From positions 1 to 64,000 of the forward strand of contig JABGPL010000001.1 of assembly GCA_018644935.1 (NCBI GenBank): 64,000 nt of DNA. Direction: 5' to 3'. The notes under the pieces are model-generated. The model had not been told where the DNA came from. It did no database searches and worked only from the letters and a program-made list of their open reading frames with translations. This stretch comes from Calditrichota bacterium (GTDB lineage: Bacteria > Electryoneota > AABM5-125-24 > Hatepunaeales > Hatepunaeaceae). This document shows, in pieces, positions 6,697 through 45,400 of the stretch; the stretch's first letter is position 1, and each line of letters starts with the position of its first letter. The translations under genes and the position numbers were made by a program.

Positions 6697-7755
6697 TCAG
6701 TTTACTGGAGCAACAGGTGAAGTAAATAACGATAAACCGGGATTTATCGGTAATTCGAGTGAATCGAATTTCTGTCTTTTGAAATGTTCATACCCAACAT
6801 TGGCAATCATAGCACCATTATCAGTGCAGTGATGAACTGGTGGAACAAGCATTGGAATTTGATGTTTTTTTGCAATCGAAGAAATCCTTTGACGAATGAA
6901 CCGGCTTGCTGAAACACCCCCTGACACAACCACTGCATGGTAAGTATTAGATTTCACAGCATATGCAATTCTGTCTGCCAACATGTCAGATACAGATTCC
7001 ATAAGTCCTTTACAAATAGCAGATCTTTCTTGATCAGGTATGATAAATCCCGCCTCATTTCTCTGATAGTTCTTTTGCAAATGGTAAAGCACCGCCGTTT
7101 TTAGACCACTGAAACTGAATCCGTACGGATCGTCTTTTAGTTTTACTCGAGGGAACACTACGGGTTCCCCTTCAAAGCTGCATGCAGCAGAATCCATTGC
7201 TGCGCCTGCAGGAAAGCCAAATCCTAACATCCGTCCGACCTTGTCAAATAATTCACCGGCTGCATCATCACGCGTTCCTCCAAGGCGAACATAGTCTCCA
7301 AACCCATTGACCTTGACCAACAGGGTATGACCTCCCGAAACAATCAGTGACAGAAAGGGCAATGGCGAGTCAGTCTCTGTTAATTTGAACGACCACAAAT
7401 GACCCTCAAGATGGTTAACACCTATTAATGGTATAGATAACGAACTTGCCATCCCTTTTGCAAATGCGACACCAACCAACAGTGCACCTGCGAGACCCGG
7501 ACCATATGTCACAGCCACACCATCGATATCTGTTGATTTAATACCTGTCTCGCGCAATACGGACTCTACTGCTGGCGCAAGGAGCCTTTCATGGGCTCTC
7601 GACGCGAGTTCAGGTACAATACCACCATATTGTCCATGCATCATTTGAGTCGTGGTTGAATCGGCAGCCAATTTTCCATCAATAATTATTGCAGCAGCCG
7701 TTTCATCACAAGAAGTCTCAATTCCGAGTATGATGGTTTTTTCTGGTTGTTTGAT
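6697..7755 (-). CDS. tsaD: tRNA N6-adenosine threonylcarbamoyltransferase TsaD; start codon uncertain
   Basis: Conserved ILGIETSCDETAAAI lies upstream of the TTG called at 7671; HLEGH and SLIVSGGHT motifs. The in-frame upstream stop is at 7780-7782 and there is no ATG/GTG/TTG between; an ATC at 7753-7755 follows an AAGGA. Confidence 0.9.
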   Translation of the reverse strand: MKQPEKTIILGIETSCDETAAAIIIDGKLAADSTTTQMMHGQYGGIVPELASRAHERLLAPAVESVLRETGIKSTDIDGVAVTYGPGLAGALLVGVAFAKGMASSLSIPLIGVNHLEGHLWSFKLTETDSPLPFLSLIVSGGHTLLVKVNGFGDYVRLGGTRDDAAGELFDKVGRMLGFGFPAGAAMDSAACSFEGEPVVFPRVKLKDDPYGFSFSGLKTAVLYHLQKNYQRNEAGFIIPDQERSAICKGLMESVSDMLADRIAYAVKSNTYHAVVVSGGVSASRFIRQRISSIAKKHQIPMLVPPVHHCTDNGAMIANVGYEHFKRQKFDSLELPINPGLSLFTSPVAPVN

Positions 7756-7806
7756 GTCTGTTTTTCCTTTTTCCGGTTCCTAGATGAAAATCTAAGAGGT
7801 AACTCG

Positions 7807-8790
7807 TTATTGCCTTCGGACGATTAGTCTCACATTCTCAGGCAAAAGAGATCCAACTTCAACTTCCGGTTCAATAAAGAGCCTGATAGGTACTTGATTT
7901 GAACGACGTGGATTGTAATCGCGATAGTCAATCCACGCATCGAGATCATCTTTTTCAAGCTTTGAAATTATGCTGATCGCGCCACTAATGTTTACATCAA
8001 CAGATGCCGGTTCAACGAGTACGATTCTGTCCCGGGGTTTATTTCGAACCTCGATTGCAACGCCAATAATTTCCTTTTCACCTATTCTTTCAATCCTCAA
8101 CAGGGCTTTGACTTTAGAAGGTTCAATTGTTGCCCCATAAGCACTTGGTAATACTAACTCAAGTTCAATTTCAGTATTGCGTTTGCCCTCTGAAATCTCT
8201 GCTTTTATCGTTTGGATTTTCTTTATTGATTCAATCTTTCTGCGCGGACCTCTCAATAGCACACTGTCCGGCTCAACTAATATTTCACCAACTTGTGTGT
8301 ATCCTGATAATGCCTCAACAGTGATATTCGGCTGAACTGGAAGTTTGAGTTCGAGTTTATCGTCGAGAAGAAACAACACAGAATCCGGGGCAACAACATC
8401 CAGAACAACAGCATTTACACCACCGGGAAGGACAACCATGTCAGGAGTAAATGGAAAAACATACTCGGAGTTTATTGTCGAGAGATCAACACGCAGTACC
8501 GGTTTATTCAAGTATTGCATCCTTAACAACTCTTTTCCGGATGTTTGGAATTTGACAAGTGCCCATTCCGGAACATCCTTTATCAACATCTTCCCAGCTT
8601 TTACCTCAGATATTATAATAGGGATCTCAAATGAGTATTCGTAGATCCTCTCAGTGACAACTAATAGCCAGAGTATTATTGCTAACAGAAAGAGGCTGAG
8701 CTTAATACGATAATGGGTACGAAGCCAGTCAATTGGAAGTCGTATGTTAAATCGGGAGAGAATTTTCATTGCATTTCCTGATCTATCCAA
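7807..8790 (-). CDS. YbbR-like domain protein
   Basis: N-terminal TM (KLSLFLLAIILWLLVV) followed by YbbR-type repeats such as PVQPNITVEALSGYTQVGEILVEPDSVLLRGP. Confidence 0.75.
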   Translation of the reverse strand: MDRSGNAMKILSRFNIRLPIDWLRTHYRIKLSLFLLAIILWLLVVTERIYEYSFEIPIIISEVKAGKMLIKDVPEWALVKFQTSGKELLRMQYLNKPVLRVDLSTINSEYVFPFTPDMVVLPGGVNAVVLDVVAPDSVLFLLDDKLELKLPVQPNITVEALSGYTQVGEILVEPDSVLLRGPRRKIESIKKIQTIKAEISEGKRNTEIELELVLPSAYGATIEPSKVKALLRIERIGEKEIIGVAIEVRNKPRDRIVLVEPASVDVNISGAISIISKLEKDDLDAWIDYRDYNPRRSNQVPIRLFIEPEVEVGSLLPENVRLIVRRQ

Positions 8791-9751
8791 ACAAAATACA
8801 TGCTACTTTATGCCCGGATGCCTGGGATATAAGTTTAAAATCCCAGCTTGAACATTCCGGTTTTGCACGTGAACACCGCGGGTGAAAATGACAGCCAGAT
8901 GGCGGATTAGCCGGGCTTGGCACATCACCTGTCAGCAACTCTCTCTCGACCTTTTTATCCGGATCCGGCAGAGGTACAGCCTCGAGAAGCGCTTGCGTGT
9001 ATGGATGTTGGGGTGAATTAACAATATTGTCTGCACTTCCAATCTCAACGACACGTCCCAGATACATCACAGCGATCTCATCCGAAATATGCTCAACAAC
9101 TGACAGGTCGTGAGCAATAAAAAGGAAAGTCAAATTCATGCGACTCTGTAAATCCATAAGTAGATTTAATATCTGAGCCTGTATTGAAACATCCAGAGCC
9201 GAAACCGGTTCATCCAGAACAATGAAATCAGGATCAACTGAAAGAGCACGGGCTATGCCGATTCGCTGACGTTGTCCTCCAGAGAACTCGTGTGGATATC
9301 TACCGGTATAATCCACAGATAATCCAACATTCTCAAGGATTTCCGCCACCTTTTCCTTAATTTGATTTCGAGGTACAATTTTATGAAACCTGAGAATTTC
9401 AGATAACATTCCACCGACTGTTATTCTTGGATTCAATGAACTATATGGATCCTGAAAAACTATCTGAACCTGTTTCCTGACTTCACGCATGTCAGTTCGA
9501 TTCAATTTCAGTAGATCCCTTCCGTTGAAGTTAACTTCACCGGCTGAAGGTTCGAGTAACCGTATGATGGAACGACCAGTAGTTGTTTTTCCGCATCCCG
9601 ACTCCCCAACCAACCCTAAGGTTTTGCCTCGTCTGACCGAGAGAGCTACTCCATCAACGGCTTTTACATGACCTCTGGTCTGTCCGAAAAAGCCCTTTTT
9701 AATCGGAAAATATTTTTTTAACCCTTTAACATCCAGCAATACTTCGTTCAT
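8783..9751 (-). CDS. Oligopeptide/dipeptide ABC transporter ATP-binding protein (OppF/DppF-like)
   Basis: Walker A GESGCGKTT, signature FSGGQRQRIGIARAL, Walker B FIVLDEP, C-terminal oligo_HPY CHFHPRCSRAKPEC. Confidence 0.92.
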   Translation of the reverse strand: MNEVLLDVKGLKKYFPIKKGFFGQTRGHVKAVDGVALSVRRGKTLGLVGESGCGKTTTGRSIIRLLEPSAGEVNFNGRDLLKLNRTDMREVRKQVQIVFQDPYSSLNPRITVGGMLSEILRFHKIVPRNQIKEKVAEILENVGLSVDYTGRYPHEFSGGQRQRIGIARALSVDPDFIVLDEPVSALDVSIQAQILNLLMDLQSRMNLTFLFIAHDLSVVEHISDEIAVMYLGRVVEIGSADNIVNSPQHPYTQALLEAVPLPDPDKKVERELLTGDVPSPANPPSGCHFHPRCSRAKPECSSWDFKLISQASGHKVACILFG

Positions 9752-27277: not shown

Positions 27278-27305
27278 CCCCCCAATCCATGCTACGATTG
27301 GGGGG
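27278..27305 (-). terminator. Intrinsic terminator after the 1962-aa ORF
   Basis: CCCCCCAATC (27278-27287), 8-nt loop, GATTGGGGGG (27296-27305); on the minus strand followed by TTTCTCTTTTTG. Confidence 0.85.
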
Positions 27306-27328
27306 TATTCTGGTCTTTCTTTTCCTGT

Positions 27329-30300
27329 TTAGCGGACTAAAACAGCCTTCTGCATTGCTACAAAGTTACCGGATTGCATTTTAATAATGTAAATTCCGGA
27401 TGAGATGCCATTTGCATTCCAAACTGTTGAATAATGCCCGGCTGTTTTGTCACCTTGAATTAGTTCGGTGACTTTTTGACCTGACATATTCCACACTGTA
27501 ACAGAAACATTACTCTTACTCGGCACACCGAAGTTGATAGTTGTTTCAGGATTAAATGGATTCGGATAGCTCGGATTCATGTAGAATACAGATGGAATTG
27601 ATGATTCCTGACCATTGGGAACATCAAGAGCATGAAGTATAATAGTGAAAGGTGCATTTCCAGAAACCATGGAGAATTCACTATCAACAGCCCAAACTCT
27701 CCAGCTTACAGTTGCCTCAGCACTACGATCAATGCTAAGCCCTTCAGAAATGTCCATTGTTGGAATCATCGCTTCAAGCTCCGCCATTGGACCTACCGCA
27801 ACTGTATCATCCACACCTTCCATGAAAAAGACAACGGTGTAGTTTACCATATCTTGTTCAAATTCGTTCTGAACAGCTTCTGCCCATGTGAATGTTAGAT
27901 TTTCTTCATCCGAAACCTCGCTTCCAGTCGCAGGGGTCAGCTGGTCAAAAGCATCCGGAGCATCATTAACGGAGTTAACAGCAACGGTGAATGCAGCTAC
28001 AAGCGGTGCGTCTCCAGCATCATCGGTGACTGTAAGTGTAACATCAAGTGGATCACCACCGGCAGTGTTGAAATTCTCCGCAGGATTTGCATTCAGTATA
28101 TTGTCAACAACACTGAGCCCAAGTTCACCGGGATTAACCGTTAACTCAAAGTTCAACTGATCCATGTAATTCTGATCGTTGAGATCTGCGTCTGAGAAAT
28201 ATGCTAGTAAATCAAGAAGCTGAACTTCACCTGCGTCTTCATCGATAGCTTGCGCTTCGACATCCTGACGTTGTTCGGGGTCTCTATTAATGTTGTTAAC
28301 AGTAATACTGATTTGAACTGCATCAGAGACACCAGCTTCATCAGTTAGTGTAAATTCTGGAGTATAAGGATCTTCACGGGCATCATTAAATGTTGGTGTC
28401 CATGTTAAAGTTGCAGTTCCATCACCATTATCTACAAACACTGCTTCACGTGGAAGTCCACCGTTATCTGTCATTTCCCATGTTAATGCATCACCTTCAT
28501 CAGGATCAGAACCAGCAAAGGCAACAATGAGTTCAACGTTTTCATCAACATTGATTTCTGCACCATCGGCAGGTTCCTCGATTACAGGAGGCCTGTCTTC
28601 GTTTATGACCTCAATCCAGACTTGAATTGCAGCGGCTTCTCCACCCGGATCTTCGACTGAAAAGACAGGAGTATAAGGTTCGACTCTGCCTGCATTCAAG
28701 TCAGGGGTCCAGGTAAATGTTGCAGTACCATCTTCATTGTCTACAAATTCATGACCACCGGGTAAACCACCTTCATCAGCAATAACCCAAGCCAATGCAT
28801 CTTCATCAGCGTCGGATGCAGTGAACTGAATCACAAGTTCCTGTTCTTCAGCAACACGGTATGCTGGAAGTTGATTGTCTGGATCACCCTCAGGTGCTTC
28901 GATTACAGGACCATCGTTTACGGCTTCTACAATAAGATCGAAGGTGAATTCTTCATATTCATCACGACGTGGTGTGGATTGTTGAGCAATACCAATCTCA
29001 ATGGATCGAACTGAACGTTCTGCGAAATCTATTGTGAATTGTTCGGTATTGATGTTTCTCACACTTCGAGAATTTCTAACATCCCGATCACGTTGATCAT
29101 CAGCTACGATGATAATGTCATCAATCCTGCCAAAATAGTTTGCATCCGGCATGATTTGATAAACATTTTCACGCGAGATTTGATGTGAAATGTTATCGAT
29201 ATCATTGTCTCTTGGGTAAAACTCAAGATCATCACCATCAGGGTCCATAAATAAATCGTCGAGATCAACAACGTCAACCCAGCCAGCATCTTCTTGAATT
29301 GTGAACTCGTTGTCGTCTCCAAAGACATTTTGTCTAACTTGATCTACAATTTCAGGTGGATCATTAACAGGGGTAATTTCCACGAAAACAGAAGTTCTGT
29401 CTTCAACATTACCATTTGTTGCATGGAAATTAAGTTCATAACGCCCAGCATCGCCACCACCTGTCTGCCAGATGAAATGACCAACATTGTCAGCAAAGTT
29501 AAACTCTGCATTATCGAGATTCTCAAATTCATCCTGATTTGTCCAGGTGAAATTGAATTCCCCTTCAGCATTTGCCAACTCTAAATCGAACTGAATTACT
29601 TCCCCTTCTTGTTCCATCTGCCTGTCAACTGGGACAATCGAAAAAATGTTCTCAATTCCCAAAGTAATGACGGTAAAACCATTCACTACCCAGTTCAAAC
29701 CACCATTAAGAACGTTTACTTCCTCAAATGCATGGTCAACCCCAGCGCCGAAATCGTAGAAACGGAAGGACATCTCTTCATCATTTTCAAATCCTTCAAT
29801 AAGCAGAAGTGTCTCTGCATCATCACCCCATGCAGACAAGCCTAAGGGCCTTCGAGGATCAACAACCTGAGATGCTCCCGCACACATACCAGCAGGAGTA
29901 AAGACGGCCACTTCGTCGTCGACACCTGGAGGTGCGCCACCTATATCTATTTCATTAACGAGAATAGAGTGGTTATTTCCAGATCTTCCATGAACAAAAA
30001 ATCCTTCATATTCTGAACCGATACCTGCTAAATTCAGCGTAGCTCCCGGGAAATGACCATCATTCGAATTGACGGCAACCAATCCCTCGTAACCAATTGC
30101 GGAAGCAGGTGTGAAAGTAATTGTAAATTCAGCTTCTTCACCTGGTGCAAGTACTACTTCATCCTGTTCAAATGCAACGTCGTAGACCTGCATATCAGTG
30201 TCTATGGACCCAATGATCAGGTCGGCTCCACCGATATTCCGAACAGTCATGACTGCTTCAACAGCGTCACCAATTCCAACCGGCCCAAATTCGATTAATT

Positions 30301-33130
30301 CAGGTTCCACAACAATGTAAGGCTCTTCACTCATCGCGTTAGCAGTTAACTCGACTGTTGTGTTTGCATTAACTTCAAAGACTTCAGGTCCCTCAACGAT
30401 GTTCGCACCGCACTCAAGCTCTTCACCGGTTGAATTATCCCAGTACATGAAGCTAAAGGCTTCACCGTTTATAAAACCATCGCGGAATTCACTATTCGGA
30501 TCATCACCGAACATCGCAAATCCGAGATCTTCTTCAACATCAACAACAATTTGACCTGCACATACGCCCTGAGATGTGAATGCCGCAATTTCATCACCAT
30601 CAAAGAGTGGCATTTCCATATCCTGAAGTGTCACTATAATCGCTTCCGCAACAATAATATTGTGGGCGATACCAGTGTTCAGCGTGAGGAAATGACTGTC
30701 TGATTCAGAACCCCATCCTTGAATTGGGAAATCAAGATTTTCACGGTCTACCACATTGGTTTCAAGCGTAACAACCGTGTTATATGCTTGTGCAGCAGCT
30801 GGCAGGAATGACAAGTTCAAAATCCTTGCTTCACCCGGTGCAATGATAATCTCATTTCCATCCCAATCGAGATCAAATGCGTCATCACCTTCGATTGTAA
30901 CATTGGTGATTACCAGATTTGCACCACCGGAACTTATTAACTCAAAATCCCAGTTATAGGCTTCACCTACAGGATGAACGCCCATGTAATAATTGTCAGC
31001 CAAATCAATGTCAGGATTGCGTGGTTCAACCACTCCATCACCATAGACATCAATGAAAATGACTCCATTACTTGGATCATTGGAATTAATTGACAACCGA
31101 CCTGTGTATTCACGCTCTTCTGTCGGATTGAAGGTTACAGTGACTTCCATTTGATCATTTTGACCAAGACTGACTTCACCTTCGAAATCGGTTGTGAATT
31201 CGTTAAGGTCAGATTCTATCGATGCGACAACAAGTTCACCAAGTCCCCGATTTCCGAGCATGAATGTCCATTCTGCAACTTCATCACCCTCAAATCTAAC
31301 TTGACCGAAATATCGTCTGGAACGATTCACGAAGATTTCCGGGGGAGGATCTTCAGATACTGCAGCAAGAGTTAAAACTGTAAAACCATTTGCCTGATAA
31401 ACTTCCGCACCCTGAATATATTCTGGAACAGCCCATGCCTCTAATCCCTGATCAGCACTCCAAACCAGATAATTGAAATTATCTTCAACCAGCAGACCAT
31501 CAACAATTTCACTTTCAGGATCGTCACCAAATGCGGTTAGTCCAACACGACCCTGATCATCGACAACGCCGCCACCAACGAGGAGACCGTCATCTTTGAA
31601 GATTCCAACTTCATCACCTTCGACTAGAGCCTCACCATCAAGAGTTGCTTCCTGAACAAGAAGACTATGATTTTCAGCAATAATATACCACTGGAAGTGT
31701 GTACCGCGATCGGCACCACTCACTCCGCCTAAAGCAACGGTAATTTCTGGATTATCTTCATCGTTACTGGAAATTGTAAGACTTCCTTCATAGAAATCAA
31801 CATCTTCTGGAGCAAATGTAACAGAAATAAACCACCTATCTCCTGCCCTAATACGTACTTCCTGATTAAAATCTGTTGAGAATACTTGATTATCGCTCTC
31901 AATTGCTGTGACAAATAAATCATCAGCACCCTCGTTCATAATCGGGAATCTCCAGGTCATCTCCTCACCAACAACCGAGTAACCGAAGAAATATTCTGCA
32001 TCTTCTTCTTCAATTGCAATTATTGGTGGATTATCCCGATTAACACCACGACCATTCAAACGTACTACAAAATCACCGTCATTAGTCGGATCATTGGAAT
32101 GAATAGTCATATTAGCGCCAAAAACTTCTTCAGCGTCCGGTGTAAAAGTAACAGTAATTTGAGAAGCTTCCCCGGAAGGAATATCTACGTCCGCTTCAAA
32201 ATCAGAAGAAAAAGCTTCATCGTCGATGACAACCTGATCAATTGTTAAAGTTTCATCTCCAACATTTGTAACAGTCAGAACCATCGCTCTATTCTCACCA
32301 AGGCGAATATTTCCGTAATTCAAGATTTCATGAGAATACTCTCCTGTTGGAGGAAGTGCAGGTTCTCCGCTACCATTCAGTGATATTTCAAGATCTCCAT
32401 CATTATCGGGGTCATTTGAACTAATGGTAAGGGTAGCAGCCTGAGCACCTTCCTCTTCAGGGGAGAAGGTTACTGTAAACTCAGCTTCTCCATTAGGTGA
32501 TAGGATGACCTCTTCATCTGGGAAATTAACAGAAAAGAATTCAGCTCCGTCCCCTGCAATCACCATTGCATCGAGGACTAAATCTGCGTTACCTTCGTTC
32601 GTTACCGAAAATGCCATTTCTGCATCTTCACCGATTCTGACATCGCCAAAATCAATAGCGTCGGTACTTGCAGCGATTCCTGGCACTTGTTCGCCGCCAC
32701 CGCGTTCTCCACTAAGTGTGAGAACTGCAAAACCATTTCCTACAAAGACTGCTTCACCGACTTGAAATTCACTAGCAACGTCTTCGATTACTTGCTCATT
32801 TTCAGAATCCCAATAACGGAATTCAATTGGGCGATTTGCAGGAAAACCGTTATTTTGGCCTTGTTCAGCCCCCCAGGCAGCAAGCCCCAATGGATCATCG
32901 GGGAAACCTTCAGGTATTATGCCAGCCCCGGCACAAACTCCATCTTCTGTGAAAAGACCAATTTCATCTCCTGGTATGAGTGATTCACCATCCAGGAGAG
33001 CGGCCGTGACAATCATACTCATATTGACATCAGTTATTTCGAACTCGAAAACCTGAGCAATAACCGCAGGCGCGAATGAGAATAGCACAATAGCTAATGC
33101 AACACTAAGCGATAGCCTTTTTACATGCAT
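27329..33130 (-). CDS. Giant secreted modular protein: IGVF modules, ASH/choice-of-anchor-D repeats, cadherin-like repeats, C-terminal T9SS type A sorting domain
   Basis: Start MHVKRLSLSVALAIVLFSFAPAVIAQ with GGGAGG-type SD at 33130; repeated FGDVRIGEDAEMAFSVTNEGNADL / FTPEEEG; VNDPP-type repeats; C-terminal PSYPNPFNPETTINFGVPSKSNVSVTVWNMSGQKV...GIYIIKMQSGNFVAMQKAVLVR. Confidence 0.85.
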   Translation of the reverse strand: MHVKRLSLSVALAIVLFSFAPAVIAQVFEFEITDVNMSMIVTAALLDGESLIPGDEIGLFTEDGVCAGAGIIPEGFPDDPLGLAAWGAEQGQNNGFPANRPIEFRYWDSENEQVIEDVASEFQVGEAVFVGNGFAVLTLSGERGGGEQVPGIAASTDAIDFGDVRIGEDAEMAFSVTNEGNADLVLDAMVIAGDGAEFFSVNFPDEEVILSPNGEAEFTVTFSPEEEGAQAATLTISSNDPDNDGDLEISLNGSGEPALPPTGEYSHEILNYGNIRLGENRAMVLTVTNVGDETLTIDQVVIDDEAFSSDFEADVDIPSGEASQITVTFTPDAEEVFGANMTIHSNDPTNDGDFVVRLNGRGVNRDNPPIIAIEEEDAEYFFGYSVVGEEMTWRFPIMNEGADDLFVTAIESDNQVFSTDFNQEVRIRAGDRWFISVTFAPEDVDFYEGSLTISSNDEDNPEITVALGGVSGADRGTHFQWYIIAENHSLLVQEATLDGEALVEGDEVGIFKDDGLLVGGGVVDDQGRVGLTAFGDDPESEIVDGLLVEDNFNYLVWSADQGLEAWAVPEYIQGAEVYQANGFTVLTLAAVSEDPPPEIFVNRSRRYFGQVRFEGDEVAEWTFMLGNRGLGELVVASIESDLNEFTTDFEGEVSLGQNDQMEVTVTFNPTEEREYTGRLSINSNDPSNGVIFIDVYGDGVVEPRNPDIDLADNYYMGVHPVGEAYNWDFELISSGGANLVITNVTIEGDDAFDLDWDGNEIIIAPGEARILNLSFLPAAAQAYNTVVTLETNVVDRENLDFPIQGWGSESDSHFLTLNTGIAHNIIVAEAIIVTLQDMEMPLFDGDEIAAFTSQGVCAGQIVVDVEEDLGFAMFGDDPNSEFRDGFINGEAFSFMYWDNSTGEELECGANIVEGPEVFEVNANTTVELTANAMSEEPYIVVEPELIEFGPVGIGDAVEAVMTVRNIGGADLIIGSIDTDMQVYDVAFEQDEVVLAPGEEAEFTITFTPASAIGYEGLVAVNSNDGHFPGATLNLAGIGSEYEGFFVHGRSGNNHSILVNEIDIGGAPPGVDDEVAVFTPAGMCAGASQVVDPRRPLGLSAWGDDAETLLLIEGFENDEEMSFRFYDFGAGVDHAFEEVNVLNGGLNWVVNGFTVITLGIENIFSIVPVDRQMEQEGEVIQFDLELANAEGEFNFTWTNQDEFENLDNAEFNFADNVGHFIWQTGGGDAGRYELNFHATNGNVEDRTSVFVEITPVNDPPEIVDQVRQNVFGDDNEFTIQEDAGWVDVVDLDDLFMDPDGDDLEFYPRDNDIDNISHQISRENVYQIMPDANYFGRIDDIIIVADDQRDRDVRNSRSVRNINTEQFTIDFAERSVRSIEIGIAQQSTPRRDEYEEFTFDLIVEAVNDGPVIEAPEGDPDNQLPAYRVAEEQELVIQFTASDADEDALAWVIADEGGLPGGHEFVDNEDGTATFTWTPDLNAGRVEPYTPVFSVEDPGGEAAAIQVWIEVINEDRPPVIEEPADGAEINVDENVELIVAFAGSDPDEGDALTWEMTDNGGLPREAVFVDNGDGTATLTWTPTFNDAREDPYTPEFTLTDEAGVSDAVQISITVNNINRDPEQRQDVEAQAIDEDAGEVQLLDLLAYFSDADLNDQNYMDQLNFELTVNPGELGLSVVDNILNANPAENFNTAGGDPLDVTLTVTDDAGDAPLVAAFTVAVNSVNDAPDAFDQLTPATGSEVSDEENLTFTWAEAVQNEFEQDMVNYTVVFFMEGVDDTVAVGPMAELEAMIPTMDISEGLSIDRSAEATVSWRVWAVDSEFSMVSGNAPFTIILHALDVPNGQESSIPSVFYMNPSYPNPFNPETTINFGVPSKSNVSVTVWNMSGQKVTELIQGDKTAGHYSTVWNANGISSGIYIIKMQSGNFVAMQKAVLVR

Positions 33131-33416
33131 TTTACCTCCCTGTAACTTCTGGTCTTGGATGGTTATGTGGAGCTTTTTATTATGGCTGTTTATCAACCAT
33201 TTAATCCACCTAACCAACTCGTAGATATGTGCGTTATTAATTTTTCTAAATTTTGTCTGAAGAAAGAGTTAAATTATTATCTTCAGAAAGAATGAAAACT
33301 AATTCCTTTTTTCTTATTTGTCAAGTGTTACACCGCTATTGCTTAGCTTGCTAAAAGTATCATCATGACTTAAAGAGATAAGAATAAAAAAAAATGTCTT
33401 TATCTTCATTGTTAAA

Positions 33417-36400
33417 TTACTGAATTAGTACCAGTTTCCTCGCATAACTCCGTCGAGGTGTCGAAACATTCATCATATAAATTCCACTCGGCCAACCCTC
33501 AGCATTGATCGTGATCTTATGCCATCCGGCAGAGTAGTCAGTTGCTTCGATTTGAGCTACTGTTTGTCCTTTCAAATTGATTATAACACCTGATAATCTC
33601 GTTTTCTCAGGTAAACCAAAATGCAGCGTAGTTCGGTTGTTAAACGGGTTTGGGTATATTCGATCGATTACAAACTCCTGTGGTGTTGTTACACTCACAA
33701 TCTCTGAACGAATCACAGAAAAGCCATCCGATGAATAATTGTCATCCCCGTAGAGTACTTTCGTCTTTAGTTGATGTTCTCTGACCTTAGATTTCAAAGA
33801 GACAGACCATTCTTCACCCTCAACGGCACCTTCAATCTCTACTGTAGCAGGGTCATCACCTCGAATAATGATCCCACAGGGATCTGAGGTATAATAACCA
33901 TGCCCAATCAATCGCCCATCATCATTTGAATTCACCAGTATTTCCAGTCCCGGCTCAGGATTAGCTCCATTAATTTCGGTGATTAATAGACTCATGTCAG
34001 AACCCGTTGGCTGCAACTTCCCGTCTAATGCTGGAGTTCCAATTCGATTCATGCCACCATCACCGGGATTATACACCAAATCAAGTGCTTCAGTTACCTT
34101 GACTTTGTATCCCTGTCCGGGTATCAATGTTCGGAGCCCAAAGAATCCAAATTCCGGGACAAGGAATAATCCTGTACCATCCTTGGCAATTTGTATCCGA
34201 TCTAAAATCTCGCTGAATGCGATCCGGCTCTCAATCTCTTCACCAAGTAGATAGCTGATAGCATTCCATCCCAGATTCAGGTGAATCGGTGTATCGGTCG
34301 GTATACGATCACCAATGGCAGTGAAACTCTCGTCCACAGTTACATTTATCTGATATCCACCAAGTGAGTTCCATTCGCCCAGACCATTGAAGTTTTGAGC
34401 AGGCCACCAGAATCTCCCAATTCCGTCTTTAGCGATAACCAGGTTTCCACGGTCATTTATATCACCAAGGACATCAGCAACCATTGGTTCAAATGGATCG
34501 ATATAAATTGACACCAGATTCCATCGTTCGATCAAATCAACCACCTGTCTCTCTGGTAATCCAATTGTCAGGATGATTGAAGTTTCACCCCCAACGCGGA
34601 AAATTCCGGGACCTTCAATTACCTCTGCCTCTCCCTCATATTCCATGTCATCATCTGGTACCCAGACGACAAATCTGAATTGCTCTCCCTGCTGAAAGCC
34701 GTCCTCCGCTTGATAAGCAAATAGCTCACCAGGAGGCATCAACCAACGGTGAACACCGCCAATTTGATCACGAGGTGTGTATACTGCGATCTCGCTGCCG
34801 ACTGGCAATTCTCCCATCCCATATTCAACATTTTCAATCGTTATCGTGTGAAAATCTTCAGTTATGGGCGGATTGTCAAAATGCTGAAATCCATCAATTA
34901 TATTTGCAGTAAATGGTATTGTTACTGCATCATCTCCATATACCCGAACGATAATTTCCCCTTCGTATTCATCCCCTTCTTCAGCATCAAAAGGAACATC
35001 AACACTTAAGGTAAGGGTTAGCTCGCCATCGGGTTCGATCATACCCGATTCCGGATCTACACTCAAGAATCCGAACCTGCGGTTCAGCTCTAATCCGGTC
35101 ATGTATTGCTCACCACTTCCAGTAACAGAGCCGAGTATCCATCGATCCTCATCCCATGCGCCAGTAATAAAGCAACCAGTGGGTGCTCCATCAAGAGTAT
35201 GCACCTGTTCAATAGTACCTTCTATCGGATTTGAACGGTATATTCCGGTTGAACCGTCTTCTTCGAGGTTAACAGCATACAAGAACATTCCATCTGGATC
35301 ATTCGGATGTATTGCAAAACCGTAAATTCCAGTAAGACCGTGTTCAGCCCATTGCACTTGAACTTCACCCTGACGGTCGACAAAATACCAGTCACTGTTC
35401 CACTCGGCTGTCCAGAATCCATCTAATTCAGCATCATAAGCCAAAGCACGGTTTAGCTCAATGGGAGCTCCCGGTTGTTCTGATCTGAATTCACCACGGG
35501 TTGTGAAGCCATATATCCGATTATTTTGTGATGCATATAGGAGCTCTCCGTCCCAAGCAAGATCCCGTAAGCCCCAGCCAATGATTTCAACCGGCTGGTT
35601 GAACGAAGATAAATAATTTCCCTCCCAATCGAGAACGGAAAGTACTGGTCCAGCGACCGGATCTGCACATGTGAGGATGAACTTGTCCTCTGCAAACTCC
35701 GCTCCCATAATACGACTATACCGACCTCTATCTGTTGCATTCCATTCAAAAACAACATCCCATGGATCATCGCGCTGTGGACCTTGACCAGATAATGTTC
35801 TCACCGATCGTCTGTTATTACCGTCATTCATGATACCCGGATTGCTCAATACTCGAACCCAGAATGGGGTTTCCCTATTTGTCTCATTGGTAAGAATTAG
35901 TTCAACATCGAGCCTGTCATTTCCACCGAGGTCAAACTCCAGAGCTTCAGGATCAACAGTAAGCCGTGCTTCGATCAGGTCAACTTCCAGGACTTGAGCC
36001 TCGTTTGCTTCAAGTTCATCCTCTATTATTGTGGGATGGAATCCGGCTTTTGATATTGTAACCGTTACATCTCCCGGAAGGGTGTAGGATAGGAAGAAAA
36101 TACCATTAAAGTTGGTTGTGACGGTTTCCCTTCCATTTGTTACTGTTGCGTTGGGAACAGGTTGTCCATCCTGATTAGAGACGATTCCTGAAATTCTCGC
36201 ATATTCGGGAATTGTGCATCCCCAGAATACTACATCATCAAGGTACCAGCCAGGATAATTGCTGATTAAATGATCAGAGGCAAAAACCCATTTAAATCGA
36301 ACTAATGCATCCGCATATTCGGAAAGGTCAAATGATACTAATTCCCAACCATTCGTGCGTCCTGAAAATCCAGGAGTATTTATCAATCCGGCAACGTTTT

Positions 36401-39400
36401 GATCGGGGTAATCATCAACTGGTACGATCAGCTCCCACTCTCCACCATTTACTGATATTTGCAACTGTCCACCATCGTGTCCGGTTTCAGTTTCCAGAAA
36501 ATGATAAAACTCGAGCCTACCAGATTCAGAATCAACAAAGAATTCCGGGATGGTTGTGATCGACCATGTGACATCATTTTCATACTCACCTTCGTTAGGT
36601 CTCGTCGCGTAGGCAAAATCTCCTGAATGAGCATCATCAGGTCCATTACGGAGGAAATCTGACCTTCTCCAGCTATTTGCTCGAGGTTCAGCATTGAACA
36701 CGGGAGTGTTATTCTCAAAATCAAATACTATCGCCTGACCAAGTGGAATGTGTATTTCTTCAGGCACAGACCTGTTTGGAACCTCATCAAATGCTACTGC
36801 CCCGACGGTGTGCCAACCATCCTGACCTTCTTCAAGTTCACCTTCCCAGAAAAGGACTTCAGGATCGTTAATTATTGCTACCTGCTCCCCATCAACGTAC
36901 AATTCGCAACCCGCATAATCGACACATCGACTGAAGTCTGCGTTTATAAACGGTGGTTCCCAGGTGATCGTATAACTCAACCCGTCAATTTCAACCTCTA
37001 AATCTTCCACAGGTCCGGGAGACATGTTAGCCACTCCAGATACTTCAATCCCGTCGAATTCTTCTGACTCCTCTACATCTTCAGGATTCGGGAAAATGGC
37101 TCCTATTGAATAGATATATTCAGTATTTTCATTATCTTCATCATCACCATTTATCTCATGAATCCATTCGAATTCACCCGGGTCAAGAGGTGCTTCCAAT
37201 GCGGGGATGCGCTCATCACCATTGTGGATGTAGACCATAAAACCAATAATGTCATCTCGTTGTGGATTCCGATAGTGGGTATACCCTCTGCTCCAATCGA
37301 ATGCAAGAGACGGAACTCTACTTCCAGGATAAGCAGGATTTAACAAGACAACAGAGTCAATGCTATCCTCAAGAACATCCTCATCACCACCTGGAATATG
37401 CCTCACCTGCCGTCTGATGAGACGTTGCTCATCTTCAAATTGGCTCCAAATTACAACCCCTACTACCTGATCTCCGGGGATTTGATCATATGCTTGCCAT
37501 TCCCCACTGAACCGAACAAAACTCGTTCCATCATTGTCATAAGATTCATCAAGTCCAACAGCCTCGGTACCCCATTCGTCCGGGTCCTGACTCCATCCAA
37601 GGTAAAACGGACCTTCCATGAAGCGAAGGGTTGGCTCATCAAAGGTATTCAGAGTATCCCATCCGTTACCATTGTTTCGCATTCGATCCACTAACTGGTT
37701 CCTGAAAATCTCTTCTCCGGGCAAGCCCGTCTCCGGATCTTCTGTGAAAATGTGAACTCTATAATCATTCAGACTACCATCAGGCCAACCATTGTTTCCC
37801 CCAACCGGACCATTTCGGCGGGTAGTATAAAGATCGAGACGACTGATATCAAATTGTCCTTCAATATCAAATCTAGTGGCAATAATGTCGTCGTCTTCCT
37901 GCAAATATATGGCATTGGAAACAACACCGCTGTGCATTTGAACATTGGAGAAATCACCTCCAAGACCCGGTGGCAGCCAATGAATGACAATTCTGTCATC
38001 GTAACCACCGTTGGTATGGACTGCACGGATACTAGCGCGGTCATCCATCTCAAAGTCGAGTGCAGTATCATTCTGGTTTTCAATAACCACATCAGCAACC
38101 GTCATTCTCGCCCAATTTTCACGATAGGCTGTGACATCATAGGTACCGACAGGCAGTTCCATGAAAAATTCACCATTCTCATCGGTAACTTCAGTAAAGA
38201 CTTCGCGATTGTCGCCCAAAAGTACTGCGATTATCTCAACGTCTTCCAAAATTTGGTTTTCGCCATCAATCACATAAACCGACGTAACAACTCCGGTTAG
38301 ACCTCCCTCTTCAGCCGGGAATAAAGTCACCTCTAAATTCTCAATCACTTCATCCGGTGCAAGTTGAATCACATCACTTACAAAAGGAATATAGCGGGGC
38401 TCATTGTCAACTTCTAGAATGTAATCACCAGGCGAAAGCCGTGGAAATGAAAACAAACCATCCTCGTCAGGAATAGCTTCTATTCCCGCTTGAGCAATAT
38501 CCTGTCTGTGTAAAAAGACTGTAGTTAAGTTGTGAAGCGGTTCATCATCGTCCAATACCACCGTACCATTTAAAGATGCTGCGCCACCCTCAACGACCAA
38601 TTCACAATGAACCTGATGGATTGTCCCGGTCATTCTGTCTATTATTTCAATTTGAGCCATCCGGACTTCATCAAACAGGTTTTCAGATTTGAAAGTAACT
38701 GTTAATTCTGTCTCAGCCCCCCCAGCAAGATCACCTGCTATTGGTGTGACACTTATCCAACTATCATGAGGGTAAAGCTCATAGAGTTTAACAATATCAC
38801 CATCCTCACCTTGAATTAGTGCCCCAACTACGTAAGAATGCGTATCATACAGGTACGTAACAAACATACCACCACCAAATCCCTCTCCTTCTGCTGCGGT
38901 TTCAATTTGACGCGCCATCTCGCGAGTTTCGGGATTATACCGATATATTGCTGCTCCACCGTTTTCTGATTCCTGATTGTGAATATACAGATAAGCTCCG
39001 TCCGGATCAGAAGGATTCCACGCCATACCTGTTACGCCAGTCAGACCGTGCTGGAGATTTCGGTCGAGAATATTGCTGTTCCTGTCAACCTTATACAAAC
39101 CATCATCCCAGTCTCCAACCCAGAATACGTCCTCATCGGGAACATACGCTATCGCTCGATTTATTTCGAGTGGTGCTCCGGTGAATTCTCCTCTTAATAA
39201 GCCAGATTCGCCGCTCATTTCGTAAATTCTCTCATCTTGCGCCCCGTACACAGATGTACCGTCGTAGGTTAAGTCACGCAAGCCCCATCCAACAATTCTA
39301 TTTCTATTTATATCTTGTGAAACATGTTCAATGAAGTTTCCATTGCGGTCATAATGATAAAAGCGACAGTCACCACTCTGAAAATCACCCGCACTGGCGA

Positions 39401-42266
39401 TAAGACGATAATGTTCAGGTCCCTGTTGTTGCCCAAAGTTGGTTCTTATGAATTCTGCCCCGATGAAAAACTGTTCTCCTGTCTCTGCTGTTAGGTCGAA
39501 TGTTTGTATCAATTCCCAGGGATCGTCTCGCCTCGGTTTACCTTCGACAATCAATCCGGACTGAGGAATGTCATCCTGAATTGCGTTGAAATTCTGACCG
39601 ATAAAATGGTCAATATACACATCGTAGTTTGTCGGCGATTCCCCTGTGTTTATCAAGGTTAAAGGACGCTGCACTTCTTCGCCAAAGTTCATGTTTACAA
39701 CGAATTCTTCTGGATTTGTATTAAGGTCGCTATCCCATCGAAACATAAAAAAGTCTTGAACAACGAGTTCTTCGGCACGCAGATTAGCTTCTGCATCAAT
39801 CTGTATGTATCCCTGATTTCGGACATGAAATTGCCATGGATTGCCTGCTATAGGAACTTCATTGAATCTCGCATGACCATTATTATCAGTGAACTCTATT
39901 CCAAATCCTTCCAGCTCAACCTCTGCACCAACAATAGGTTCCTCGTTAAGATCATCGGAAACAATAACAAGCAGTGACCCTAATACAGGCTCCTCAATTG
40001 TTAAATCATCAATAAACCAGCCAGTATAAGGTCTGAAATTGCTATCATCTGATTGAAAATTAAACCTGATTTGAACGACCTCACCAACATATTCACCGAG
40101 GTCGAACAGAGCTTCTTCCCAGTCATCAAAGGTACCGGTATATCCAGAGCCTGCATTAAGAGCAAAGATGTCATCTGCGGTATAACCACCCACAGGTGAA
40201 AGTAGTGACCACCTATCCCCGCCATCTGAAGAAATTTGTACCTGGCATCCGTCCCAACCTTCTTCAACATCTAGATAATGGAAAAAACTGAACCAGATTT
40301 GATCTCCTACTTCTTCCAGATTCATTTGAGGTAAATATAGCTGAAAATCCGCTAAATTAGGATAGGGACTGTCGATAACGGTTCCCCAGACATTATCTCC
40401 ACTATGGGCATCCAACTCCTCCGGGTTCCCCCATTGCCATGCATCTTGCGCTGGTATTGGATTTAGAGCTCCGTTAAATTGTTCAAAATCCTGAGTCCAG
40501 CCCGGTCCTACAATCGCAGTCGGAACGGCAAACACAGGTCCGGCAATTTCCGAAACACCATTTGGATTTGAATAAACTGCTCTGACTGCAAACAAATAAA
40601 GCTGATTGTTTTCGAGCTCAATCACAGTCAGTTCGTGTGCATTTGTAAAGGCGTATTCCTCACCGTTCATGAAGATCTGGAAGGACTCTAGTTCATCCCG
40701 CTGTGGGGCTTGTTCGCTAGCCAGTAACGCGGTTTCAAGTTGCTCTCTCAGTTCGACTATTCTGTCTCTATCGGCATCTGATGGTTTTAGACTGTTTCTT
40801 GGTTGGGACAGTCTGGCGATCTCGCGTTGCAGGTCTAACACATTGCGACCAATAATCTGTTGGGCCCTTCTTGGGTGATCCCAACTCAGTGTTACTTCTC
40901 CATCGCCTACCTGCGCAACAAGATTCAAAGGTGGAGGAAATTCGGGAGGTGGGGACCGGAAAAACTCAATCATCAAATCCATGAGCTGTTCTTTGGTACC
41001 ACGATCTCCATCTACCAAACCACCAAACTCAAACGAGCATCCTATAGTGCGGTACGCCTCGCCCATAAATGCGACCATGCCGACGAATTCTTCTTCGTTG
41101 TCAATAAAGGAAAATATCCCTTCAGCTCCTTCCTGAGCCTGTAAATGATCTACAAAAGCATTGTGCTGTGCCTGATAATCATTAAACCGGAATCCCTCTG
41201 TAAATGTGCCATCATGACCCATTACGGGAGGGTCAAGTCTTTCTCCGTCAGCAATTCCATTAATGTGGAAATATGGGTGTGCATTCGTCGCGTCATCATT
41301 ATTCCATGTATCAGATCCTTCAAGATAGACCGCTCCACCCGCCTCAATATAATCAGCGACTACCTGACCTTCAGCCTCTGTCAACGGGTGATAGTGCTCA
41401 CCATTGATTCCATAATTTCCGAGATTAATGAAGACGGCTTCAAATTCCCGTAAATCCTCTGGCAACTGGTCACCTTCACCATCTAAAAATCTTAAATGTG
41501 CAACTGTATGGTCAAGTGCACGCAGAGCTGCTTCTTGCGCGTTACCAGATTCAGTTTCAGCGGTTGCATCCCAGATCAGGAAACTACCCGGACCATGGGT
41601 GGAAACTAACAGGGCAGTCTCATTTTGTATATCAATACCTTCACCATTATTCCGGAGAGTAAGTCCCTGAGTACCTGTTAGGTTTTCTATCCCTATTGTC
41701 CCAACATCAAGGTCGAACTCTTCTCCAATCTCCCTGTACTGGAAAATTATATCACCATTTGGCTCAAGGATAATTTGCATGGTTATCACATTCTCAGGCG
41801 AGCGTCCGTCCTCATTGCGCTCACCAACATTGTGATATTGAATTACTCGTTTCCCATTGCGCAAACCTTGTAACACAACTCCATCTGCCCAGAAAGCAGA
41901 GGGATCGAGATCTTTCCAATAGGGTGCAATGATATTGTTAGGAACGTTTTCGGTGGGGAATTGTTCATTTTCAAAATTGTTATACCCCTCAATAGGTCCA
42001 AATCCAATAAACCCATTTGAACTTACCCAAAATTGCTCATAGATTTGGCCGTAAAACTGAAAAGGGTATCCAATATTGTATGGACCAAAAAAATCGTTAT
42101 TCCGAATATCAACCAGAGGCTCACCGGTGTCTTCAATTTCTAACCAGTTATATTCTATTTCGAAGAGATCGTAATTATCTCTTCGAGGTTGAGCGAAAAC
42201 CGGACATGTTAAGGTTGATAATAAAATCAACACCAGAAGAGTAGCAACAAACGAGATTCTCAACAT
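33417..42266 (-). CDS. Giant secreted modular protein (about 2949 aa) with duplicated MAM-like/carboxypeptidase-regulatory-like/ASH/propeller-like block and C-terminal sorting domain
   Basis: Start MLRISFVATLLVLILLSTLTCPVFAQ at 42266; two WDGCQVQISSDGG / HDGGQLQISVNGG units; C-terminal IYPNPFNNRTTLHFGLPEKTRLSGVIINLKGQTV...RSYARKLVLIQ. Confidence 0.85.
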   Translation of the reverse strand: MLRISFVATLLVLILLSTLTCPVFAQPRRDNYDLFEIEYNWLEIEDTGEPLVDIRNNDFFGPYNIGYPFQFYGQIYEQFWVSSNGFIGFGPIEGYNNFENEQFPTENVPNNIIAPYWKDLDPSAFWADGVVLQGLRNGKRVIQYHNVGERNEDGRSPENVITMQIILEPNGDIIFQYREIGEEFDLDVGTIGIENLTGTQGLTLRNNGEGIDIQNETALLVSTHGPGSFLIWDATAETESGNAQEAALRALDHTVAHLRFLDGEGDQLPEDLREFEAVFINLGNYGINGEHYHPLTEAEGQVVADYIEAGGAVYLEGSDTWNNDDATNAHPYFHINGIADGERLDPPVMGHDGTFTEGFRFNDYQAQHNAFVDHLQAQEGAEGIFSFIDNEEEFVGMVAFMGEAYRTIGCSFEFGGLVDGDRGTKEQLMDLMIEFFRSPPPEFPPPLNLVAQVGDGEVTLSWDHPRRAQQIIGRNVLDLQREIARLSQPRNSLKPSDADRDRIVELREQLETALLASEQAPQRDELESFQIFMNGEEYAFTNAHELTVIELENNQLYLFAVRAVYSNPNGVSEIAGPVFAVPTAIVGPGWTQDFEQFNGALNPIPAQDAWQWGNPEELDAHSGDNVWGTVIDSPYPNLADFQLYLPQMNLEEVGDQIWFSFFHYLDVEEGWDGCQVQISSDGGDRWSLLSPVGGYTADDIFALNAGSGYTGTFDDWEEALFDLGEYVGEVVQIRFNFQSDDSNFRPYTGWFIDDLTIEEPVLGSLLVIVSDDLNEEPIVGAEVELEGFGIEFTDNNGHARFNEVPIAGNPWQFHVRNQGYIQIDAEANLRAEELVVQDFFMFRWDSDLNTNPEEFVVNMNFGEEVQRPLTLINTGESPTNYDVYIDHFIGQNFNAIQDDIPQSGLIVEGKPRRDDPWELIQTFDLTAETGEQFFIGAEFIRTNFGQQQGPEHYRLIASAGDFQSGDCRFYHYDRNGNFIEHVSQDINRNRIVGWGLRDLTYDGTSVYGAQDERIYEMSGESGLLRGEFTGAPLEINRAIAYVPDEDVFWVGDWDDGLYKVDRNSNILDRNLQHGLTGVTGMAWNPSDPDGAYLYIHNQESENGGAAIYRYNPETREMARQIETAAEGEGFGGGMFVTYLYDTHSYVVGALIQGEDGDIVKLYELYPHDSWISVTPIAGDLAGGAETELTVTFKSENLFDEVRMAQIEIIDRMTGTIHQVHCELVVEGGAASLNGTVVLDDDEPLHNLTTVFLHRQDIAQAGIEAIPDEDGLFSFPRLSPGDYILEVDNEPRYIPFVSDVIQLAPDEVIENLEVTLFPAEEGGLTGVVTSVYVIDGENQILEDVEIIAVLLGDNREVFTEVTDENGEFFMELPVGTYDVTAYRENWARMTVADVVIENQNDTALDFEMDDRASIRAVHTNGGYDDRIVIHWLPPGLGGDFSNVQMHSGVVSNAIYLQEDDDIIATRFDIEGQFDISRLDLYTTRRNGPVGGNNGWPDGSLNDYRVHIFTEDPETGLPGEEIFRNQLVDRMRNNGNGWDTLNTFDEPTLRFMEGPFYLGWSQDPDEWGTEAVGLDESYDNDGTSFVRFSGEWQAYDQIPGDQVVGVVIWSQFEDEQRLIRRQVRHIPGGDEDVLEDSIDSVVLLNPAYPGSRVPSLAFDWSRGYTHYRNPQRDDIIGFMVYIHNGDERIPALEAPLDPGEFEWIHEINGDDEDNENTEYIYSIGAIFPNPEDVEESEEFDGIEVSGVANMSPGPVEDLEVEIDGLSYTITWEPPFINADFSRCVDYAGCELYVDGEQVAIINDPEVLFWEGELEEGQDGWHTVGAVAFDEVPNRSVPEEIHIPLGQAIVFDFENNTPVFNAEPRANSWRRSDFLRNGPDDAHSGDFAYATRPNEGEYENDVTWSITTIPEFFVDSESGRLEFYHFLETETGHDGGQLQISVNGGEWELIVPVDDYPDQNVAGLINTPGFSGRTNGWELVSFDLSEYADALVRFKWVFASDHLISNYPGWYLDDVVFWGCTIPEYARISGIVSNQDGQPVPNATVTNGRETVTTNFNGIFFLSYTLPGDVTVTISKAGFHPTIIEDELEANEAQVLEVDLIEARLTVDPEALEFDLGGNDRLDVELILTNETNRETPFWVRVLSNPGIMNDGNNRRSVRTLSGQGPQRDDPWDVVFEWNATDRGRYSRIMGAEFAEDKFILTCADPVAGPVLSVLDWEGNYLSSFNQPVEIIGWGLRDLAWDGELLYASQNNRIYGFTTRGEFRSEQPGAPIELNRALAYDAELDGFWTAEWNSDWYFVDRQGEVQVQWAEHGLTGIYGFAIHPNDPDGMFLYAVNLEEDGSTGIYRSNPIEGTIEQVHTLDGAPTGCFITGAWDEDRWILGSVTGSGEQYMTGLELNRRFGFLSVDPESGMIEPDGELTLTLSVDVPFDAEEGDEYEGEIIVRVYGDDAVTIPFTANIIDGFQHFDNPPITEDFHTITIENVEYGMGELPVGSEIAVYTPRDQIGGVHRWLMPPGELFAYQAEDGFQQGEQFRFVVWVPDDDMEYEGEAEVIEGPGIFRVGGETSIILTIGLPERQVVDLIERWNLVSIYIDPFEPMVADVLGDINDRGNLVIAKDGIGRFWWPAQNFNGLGEWNSLGGYQINVTVDESFTAIGDRIPTDTPIHLNLGWNAISYLLGEEIESRIAFSEILDRIQIAKDGTGLFLVPEFGFFGLRTLIPGQGYKVKVTEALDLVYNPGDGGMNRIGTPALDGKLQPTGSDMSLLITEINGANPEPGLEILVNSNDDGRLIGHGYYTSDPCGIIIRGDDPATVEIEGAVEGEEWSVSLKSKVREHQLKTKVLYGDDNYSSDGFSVIRSEIVSVTTPQEFVIDRIYPNPFNNRTTLHFGLPEKTRLSGVIINLKGQTVAQIEATDYSAGWHKITINAEGWPSGIYMMNVSTPRRSYARKLVLIQ

Positions 42267-42315
42267 TACGCGCTCCGTTTTGGGCTGAGAGTACAAATGA
42301 GTGAGTTAATTATTT

Positions 42316-42336
42316 TCAGGTTGAAAGCCAACCTGA
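42316..42336 (-). terminator. Possible terminator hairpin between two giant-protein genes
   Basis: TCAGGTTG-AAAGC-CAACCTGA, perfect 8-bp stem; only a weak T tract. Confidence 0.35.
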
Positions 42337-42447
42337 ATCTGCATAAACCAGAAGCTAAATTGCCGTTTTCACAACTATAAAAATCTACTTTGCAAGTGAA
42401 GAAAATGGCAAGATAGCCTCAGTTAATGCAATAATCACAGTTAAATT

Positions 42448-45400
42448 TTATCTTAACAGCATCAACTTTGCTGATGCTGAAGTTTCCCCAGCTTTGAAGC
42501 TGAGTATATATATACCACTGGACAATCCGTCAGCTTTCAATGACAGAGAGTGATGACCTGCTTCAAAACTACCTTGAACAAGCGATATCACTTCCCGTCC
42601 TGCTAAATCATGCACCATTAAATCTACATTCTCGGATTCAGGCAAGGAGAACTTGATTGTAGTCGAACTGTTAAACGGATTAGGGTAAGGAGCCTCAAAA
42701 ACAAATTCAACAGGCAGCAGTGCATCAACAGGAACGCTGGCAACTGCATATGTATCTGTATTGAAAGTACTGTTTCCCACAATCCACGACGGCTCGATAT
42801 CTGTGTTATGTCCATGCTGCCGCATTACAAAATTCAATTCATCACCTTCGATGGCTCCCTCGATATCAGAAGTACCGGGATCATCTCCCCAGATTGCCAT
42901 TCCCCAGGGTCCTTCACCTGAAAGAACGGTGGACCCAACGCAAATATTGTCTTCACTGAAAGCAGCAATTTCAACATCATCATCCAAATTAGGAGACTCC
43001 GTGATTAGGAAACTCATGTTCCTGCCAGTTGGCTCAGGAGCAATGAAATATTTTGCTTTGTCGGTTGGCAATAGATTCGCAGCTTGCACTTGTTCACCAA
43101 CGTTCCAGATGAGTTCTGTTTCTTCAGTTAATTGAATCTGATAACCCTGACCTCGAACCAGATTACCCATATTATCAAATCCGAAAGCTGGCAAATAGAA
43201 TCTTCCCATACCATCTTTGGCTATTTCAAGAAGATCAACGATGTTTTCAAATGACACAGCCGCCCTCTGAGGATCCTCCGGGAGATAGGCAACAATTTTC
43301 CAGCCTACTTGCAGTGGAATTTGCGTTTGAACAGGTGCAAATTCTCCTTCAAACATAAGTTCAGCACCAGCTGACATCTTTGCCTGATACCCGTATCTGA
43401 AATCCCAGCCTGGTATATTGTTAAACCCAAAAAGAGGTGAATAAAATTGACCGACTGAGTTTTTGAGTAGTTGAAGAAGATCTGCTTCACCTAATCCACC
43501 CCATAATCCAATTATATCATCATCTTCAGGGATTATTGGAGTGGAAACCATATTCCAGGACTCAACGAGCTCGAGATTAAATTCATCACCTTGTGGTTCA
43601 CCGCCGGATGAAAGAGTTAACACTGATACCCCACCATCATGGAAAACGTTATTACCCTGTATAAAACGAGCTTCCGTTGCATATTCGCTGCCGCTCGCAA
43701 TATCCCATATTTGGAAACTCATCTCTTCATCCTCAACCAATCCATCAATCTCTTCGGTGAGGTCATTGTCTCCCCATACCGCCATGCCGACTCTTTCACC
43801 TGTCCAAAACTGAGCACCGCAGCACATTCCATCGGGTGAAAAAACCCCAATTTCAGAACCTACTGCCAATGGTTCATCATTTAAAGTCGCTTCAACGACC
43901 AGAATTGAATGATTCTGACCTGTGTTATCCACGAATTCGTAATGCATCTCAGGTAAAATCCCAGTACCGGTAACTCGGATTTCAATTACTTCTTCATCAG
44001 GAGAAGAATTTTCAATCATGATATCAGCACTAAATTCTGAAATATCTTTCGGTTCAAAATAGACTGTGACATCAACTGATCCGTTCTGTTCAATGTCAAA
44101 CTCACCATCCACATCAATTGAGAATTGCTCTGCATCTTCACCGATTATTCCTATCGATGAGACATTGAGAACTTCAGCTCCGACATTGCTTATAGTAAGA
44201 ACTCTTTCTGAGATTGTGCGCAGGGGAACTTCTCCGAAGATAAAGAAATTCGGTTCAATCTCAATGTCTGGTTGAGGAGGTAACCCAATACCAATCATCC
44301 CAATCTCGACCTCATTGAGGTTTGGATCATTGTTGAGAATCATCAACACTGCTTCATAATCGCCTTCATTTTCAGGGGCGAATTGAATAACTATGTCGAT
44401 TCGTTCACCGTCTTCAAGTTCAACAGGCTCTCCACCTTCAATAATTTCAAAGGGAACATCGTCGGGAAGTAGTATGATTTCATCAATTACAAGAGTAACA
44501 ACACTGCGACTTGAGACACGCACGGTTTGCTGGATACTTTGACCAACATTAACTGCACCAAAGTCGAGTTCTCGTTGGTCAACAAAGATACTTGGAGACT
44601 GGGCAAAAATTAATGCACCCATATCTGCCCGAGTGTCATCAATATCACGCGGTGACTCAGGATCGCCAGAATCGACACAAGGACTGCCTTCAGTAAGATT
44701 AAACTCACCTTCGTCAGGATCCATTAGCTCAGGATCTCTATCAATGTTGCCTTGACCTTCATATCCGTCTTGAATATCTGAGTATGTAATATTGTGATCA
44801 GGTGCTACAATAGAAATTTCATTGTCTTCACCATGTGTGTTGTTCCAGTGGACGCAATTTATAAGGGTTGGATCTCCGTTTCGATAAATGTGGATACCAC
44901 CTCGACCGCCCTCACCATGATTTCCATAAATTGTGCAGTTTACAAGTAGTGGCTCTGCAACCTCATCCTCATTACCAGCCCGTGTTGTTATGTAAAAACC
45001 ACCTCCATAACCACCTGAATCTTCAGGTCGAATTGCAGTATTTCCAAAAATAACCATATTTGAAAACGTTGGGCTTGTACCAAGACAATAAACACCTGCT
45101 CCGTATGTTCTCGAACCACCAGTTATAGTGAAACCAACCCATTTGGTTTCTCGACCTTCTCCATTCTGAAACGTTAAAACTCTACCATCACCATTTGCAT
45201 CGATTATTGTTTCATTTATAAAATGATCCTCACGAGTTGTTAAGTAAAGACTTCCGACAACGATTTCGCGCCCAGTTACATCATTGATGGTCTCATTGTA
45301 AACACCGGGTTGTACGAGTACAGTATCTATTGCATCTCGACTGGCAGCATCTATTGCATCCTGAATCGTCTCACGATCATCAGGAACGTGGATTATCCTT

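Follow-up and report, generated by a model that had tools for sequence, protein, structure and literature searches.

The infC gene has an unusual start codon in a wide range of bacteria, where it serves the autoregulation of IF3. The E. coli gene begins with ATT and the Streptomyces gene with ATC (PMC5472188), while S. aureus uses AUA (PMC13009471). Near-cognate starts have also been described for the S. aureus genes ccpN (AUA), cvfC1 (AUU) and citZ (AUA), where reporters gave about 10% (up to 30%) of the AUG output (PMC13009471). In Streptomyces, the sigR gene begins with GTC and is repressed by IF3 (PMC5472188).

Here, we describe a tsaD gene in which the conserved N-terminus lies upstream of any canonical start codon. 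The gene is located in a 64,000-nucleotide stretch of DNA from the draft metagenome assembly of an uncultured bacterium, hereafter referred to as the window. TsaD is a subunit of the tRNA t6A transferase, and tsaD is an essential tRNA-modification gene. The t6A modification is likewise described as essential (PMC4330362). In our literature searches, whose coverage was incomplete, a non-canonical tsaD start was not found reported.

Results

The Conserved Part of tsaD Extends Beyond Its First Canonical Codon

The preliminary description of this DNA stated that no ATG, GTG or TTG lies in frame between the TAG at 7780-7782 and the ILGIETSCDET motif. Reading of the frame bears this out: it translates as *EPEKGKTDIKQPEKTIILGIETSCDET..., with this TAG as the 5′ limit, and the TTG at 7671 is the first canonical codon. 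Moreover, the sequence as read contains none of these three codons in any frame of the minus strand between the ybbR stop (TAA 7809-7807) and GIETSCDET, so that a single indel cannot restore the tsaD start. The features discussed here are collected in Table 1.

Table 1. Features of the ybbR-tsaD region (window positions) and of other genes of the same genome (positions within the loci indicated).
Feature	Position	Strand	Remarks
ybbR-family gene	7807..8790	(-)	upstream of tsaD, same frame
Three in-frame stops between ybbR and tsaD	7780..7809	(-)	TAA 7809-7807, TAG 7794-7792, TAG 7782-7780
Predicted 8-bp hairpin	7778..7797	(-)	spans two of the three stops, just 5′ of the Shine-Dalgarno
tsaD open frame	6697..7779	(-)	ends with TGA 6699-6697; 6697-7755 most likely coding
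AAAGGA, Shine-Dalgarno for ATC 7755	7765..7770	(-)	9 nt gap
ATC, proposed tsaD start	7753..7755	(-)	no other in-frame ATH 5′ of the motif has a Shine-Dalgarno; predicted product fMet-KQPEKTIILGIETSCDET...
ATC, alternative tsaD start without Shine-Dalgarno	7732..7734	(-)	-0.7 kcal/mol
ATA, alternative tsaD start without Shine-Dalgarno	7729..7731	(-)	-0.3 kcal/mol
GIETSCDET, conserved TsaD motif	7699..7725	(-)	located 5′ of TTG 7671
TTG, first in-frame canonical codon of tsaD	7669..7671	(-)	inside the conserved N-terminus
ribE (riboflavin synthase), ATT start	L133 4046-4048, G000:C113:24046	(+)	directly before FTGLIEE, AGGGAGGA upstream
lgt (prolipoprotein transferase), odd start	L078 about 9496-9504	(-)	ACG, or ATC one codon upstream
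murI (glutamate racemase), ATA at the relatives' start column	L085 9658-9660	(+)	TTG, TTG and ATG in three relatives
DHH-type phosphoesterase, probably no canonical start before the N-terminus	L152 13674	(+)	start position less certain
relA/spoT, probably no canonical start 5′ of the conserved N-terminus	L114 6624	(+)	start position less certain
Arginase-family gene, probably no canonical start before the N-terminus	L096 10085	(+)	start position less certain

The product clearly belongs to the TsaD family: it matches TIGR03723 with 365.3 bits (cut-off 296.1) over positions 1-313 of the 314 in the profile, and the Pfam TsaD match has 266 bits. The gene is single-copy in the assembly, the other TIGR03723 match (only 37.6 bits) being a TsaB-type paralogue. 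When the 78-nt leader was shuffled, an in-frame canonical codon appeared within the last 16 codons in only 28% of cases, so the lack of such a codon in noncoding sequence is not improbable by itself. The unusual feature of tsaD is that conserved coding sequence extends 5′ past the first canonical codon, its N-terminus being unreachable from any ATG, GTG or TTG. When coding potential was scanned over 389 kb of the same genome, tsaD ranked first among such cases.

A Candidate AUC Start Is Preceded by a Shine-Dalgarno Sequence

Among the in-frame candidates, ATC 7755 is most likely the best tsaD start, judging from the signals around it. The spacing given in the preliminary description, with this ATC about 9 nt after AAGGA, proved correct (AAGGA is at 7769-7765), so that an AUH codon stands at start spacing from a moderate Shine-Dalgarno, whose AAAGGAA duplex has an energy of -5.6 kcal/mol. 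In the predicted RNA fold, ATC 7755 is unpaired. A Shine-Dalgarno as strong as this one precedes 11% of random genomic sites, and an in-frame ATH with a Shine-Dalgarno of such strength arose in 4.6% of the shuffled tsaD leaders, so that this sequence counts as support for the ATC start and not as proof. The stretch forming the predicted hairpin upstream does not fold significantly better than its shuffles (z -1.5).

The peptide read from this codon, (ATC)KQPEKTIILGIETS, resembles (GTG)KQPVVLGIETS of the relative G002. Positional homology between ATC 7755 and the relatives' GTG was considered and not adopted: the KQP is suggestive, but the MAFFT alignment places CCA opposite the relatives' tsaD start, which makes the positional homology of this ATC ambiguous.

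The tsaD Start Is Canonical in Relatives with a Different ybbR-tsaD Junction

The nearest genomes available for comparison belong to eight further genera of the family, the index genus being represented by one genome. In most of these relatives, tsaD is 56-60% identical to that of the index genome. In all seven family members where the start was read, it is GTG, ATG or TTG, located 6-8 codons upstream of the first residue of GIETS. The same holds more broadly, since all other tsaD genes with a readable motif (about 40 sequences read, these seven included) have a canonical codon near it. The odd tsaD start is thus found in one genome only.

The junction with the upstream gene also differs. In relatives, the end of ybbR either overlaps the beginning of tsaD, mostly as in CAAGTGAA, or lies directly next to it. 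In the window, ybbR ends with CAATAA, and about 70 extra bases then separate it from tsaD. A repeat or an inserted element as the origin of the extra leader segment was rejected, as the genome contains no second copy of it, and no Rfam elements were found in the window. A comparison with orthologues in close relatives, proposed earlier as a check on sequence error, thus returned canonical starts, but the relatives belong to other genera, share about 60% identity in tsaD and have another junction, which points to a derived state here and not to an error.

Other Genes of the Same Genome Lack a Canonical Start

Coding potential was scanned over 1.16 Mb of the index genome (G000), in combination with a comparison with the relative G004; many of the open reading frames flagged were antisense or repeat ones and were discarded by eye. 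In four further genes, infC, ribE, lgt and murI, the conserved N-terminus is not preceded by a canonical start, and the same is probably true of genes for a DHH phosphoesterase, RelA/SpoT and an arginase. The gene families of the candidates from the scan were checked; only the DHH protein gave no family match, and its name comes from its motifs and from the homologue in G004. The infC gene served as a positive control within the genome: in GGAGG-CCTCTA-ATA, it has no canonical start and has ATA/ATT after GGAGG, and infC of several relatives likewise lacks a canonical start. At many of the odd-start sites the Shine-Dalgarno is strong, reaching -11.7 kcal/mol.

The riboflavin synthase encoded by ribE begins with Met-FTGLIEE almost universally, so the start column can be read directly. 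Within the family, the codon before FTGLIEE is ATT in G000, ATC in G001 and G004, and ATG in five other members. Outside the family, 386 diverse genomes were searched with a pattern whose first letter was A; ATG was found in 66 of the 66 readable ribE genes and ATH in none, after removal of two ATH matches (in G115 and G039:C55) that are not riboflavin synthase. The difference between 3/8 in the family and 0/66 outside it is significant (Fisher p = 8.6e-4). As ribE was picked because the index genome had an odd start there, the value was recalculated by hand without this genome, giving 2/7 vs. 0/66 and p of about 0.008.

For lgt, whose product begins with Met-HPV, the codon before HPV is ACG in G000 (with an ATC one codon upstream), ATC in G004 and CTG in G007. 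For murI, G000 has ATA where three relatives have TTG, TTG and ATG, and G005 is without a canonical codon. Unlike that of tsaD, the odd starts of ribE and lgt recur in other genera.

Two further observations concern the genome itself. ARAGORN reported a selenocysteine tRNA (L079 10976-11070, minus strand), and the minus strand of the window at 27300-45500 carries open frames of 1979, 2962 and 1009 codons (5′ ends at 33268, 42305 and 45477, respectively), all with a strong coding signal.

Discussion

The absence of canonical starts, the intact conserved protein, the near-cognate codons recurring at start columns and the Shine-Dalgarno sequence at 7755 together lead us to favour, with a probability of about 0.65, a functional tsaD translated from the near-cognate AUC 7755-7753 as one of several housekeeping genes with drifted starts. 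The Shine-Dalgarno AAAGGA would direct ribosomes to this AUC, which the ordinary fMet initiator tRNA would decode despite a mismatch at the third position. The ancestral tsaD start, presumably a GTG overlapping the ybbR stop, may have been lost as the junction was remodelled by the approximately 70 extra bases, while the starts of several housekeeping genes in the family may have drifted to AUU, AUC, AUA, ACG or CUG. By analogy with the S. aureus AUA/AUU starts and Streptomyces sigR, TsaD expression would probably be low and IF3-sensitive. An altered initiator tRNA was considered and rejected: the tRNA-Met at L099 14420-14494 has a CAU anticodon, C at position 1 and the GGG/CCC anticodon stem, and looks normal.

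Initiation could instead occur nearer to the motif, at ATC 7734 or ATA 7731, giving M-(I)-LGIETSCDET with the usual TsaD leader length. Most relatives from the phylum start about four codons before GIETS and in many solved TsaD structures the chain starts 2-3 residues ahead of the matched motif, but neither codon has a Shine-Dalgarno, and the starts of the family relatives, 6-8 codons upstream, are nearer to 7755; we regard this choice of start as unlikely. The preliminary description had left rare AUC/AUA initiation and sequence error side by side, and of these two near-cognate initiation is now clearly favoured. An error in the assembly, or a minority variant, hiding a canonical tsaD start would fit a draft of 212 contigs, the single substitution that separates ATC or ATA from ATG, and the canonical starts in relatives. 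Such an error is nonetheless quite improbable, as few genes are disrupted when G000 is compared with G004 (the splits listed are mostly repeats or neighbouring paralogues), no single indel could rescue the start, and ribE, lgt and murI show the same phenomenon exactly at the start column, including in independently assembled relatives. As tsaD is not the sole gene with an odd start, sequence error is unlikely as a general cause. Furthermore, a 330-codon gene offers about 128 single changes to a stop vs. seven that lose the start, i.e., about 18 times more nonsense targets, so that, if errors or decay were at work, broken frames should greatly outnumber lost starts.

The position of ybbR directly upstream and in the same frame, together with the overlapping ybbR-tsaD genes of relatives, might suggest translational coupling, in which ribosomes terminating on ybbR reinitiate downstream or the stops are read through. 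The three in-frame stops make readthrough implausible, and reinitiation about 50 nt downstream requires a start codon anyway, so that coupling would modify the AUC model and not replace it; as an explanation of its own, we consider it very unlikely. Least credible of all is a tsaD gene that is decaying or translated as a shortened protein solely from TTG 7671. This codon is the choice of a standard gene caller, but its use would delete GIETSCDET together with positions 1-20 of TIGR03723; the remainder of the gene is intact, the assembly holds no other tsaD, and the modification that it serves is described as essential.

The tsaD gene, with its proposed start at AUC 7755, probably exemplifies near-cognate initiation that recurs across this bacterial family, and the recurrence of such starts in conserved genes is of more interest than tsaD itself. 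A broader reading, to which we give somewhat less than an even chance, is that the family has relaxed start-codon selection, tolerating AUU, AUC, AUA, ACG and CUG in perhaps tens of genes per genome, essential ones included, with differences between genera of the sort seen for ordinary start codons. In the C-domain of IF3, the sampled family members have Arg and Ala vs. His and Gly in two of the three outgroups (GRMMTRKELAEEVL vs. GRMVTHKELGREVM; infC loci L066-L074), and this change might contribute to the relaxed stringency. As a speculation, tsaD, whose product supports decoding fidelity, could be tuned by its own weak AUC start. In yeast, the loss of t6A is reported to double the observed non-AUG starts (PMC4717488); in the literature searched, we found no bacterial evidence for self-regulation of TsaD via its start codon.

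If the family-wide pattern is true, the starts of essential genes can drift to near-cognate codons, which challenges the view of such starts as rare regulatory devices of infC and a few other genes. It would also provide natural lineages for studying how IF3, the initiator tRNA and Shine-Dalgarno strength govern start-codon stringency. Common gene finders accept only ATG, GTG and TTG, so that genes with near-cognate starts appear truncated or look broken.

Among the described systems, sigR resembles tsaD in having a non-canonical start that was overlooked by annotation (PMC5472188). It differs in using GTC instead of AUC, and its regulatory importance has been demonstrated. The infC gene, with an odd start in the same genome too, is likewise a housekeeping gene with an isoleucine codon as a start and a Shine-Dalgarno before it. 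Its odd start, however, is widespread and tied to IF3 autoregulation, unlike the single-genome case of tsaD. The S. aureus genes share with tsaD the near-cognate AUH start and the Shine-Dalgarno, which is weaker in tsaD, but they comprise a regulator (ccpN), a small protein (cvfC1) and an allele of citZ from a single strain lineage, whereas in the family studied here several housekeeping genes vary in their start codons between genera.
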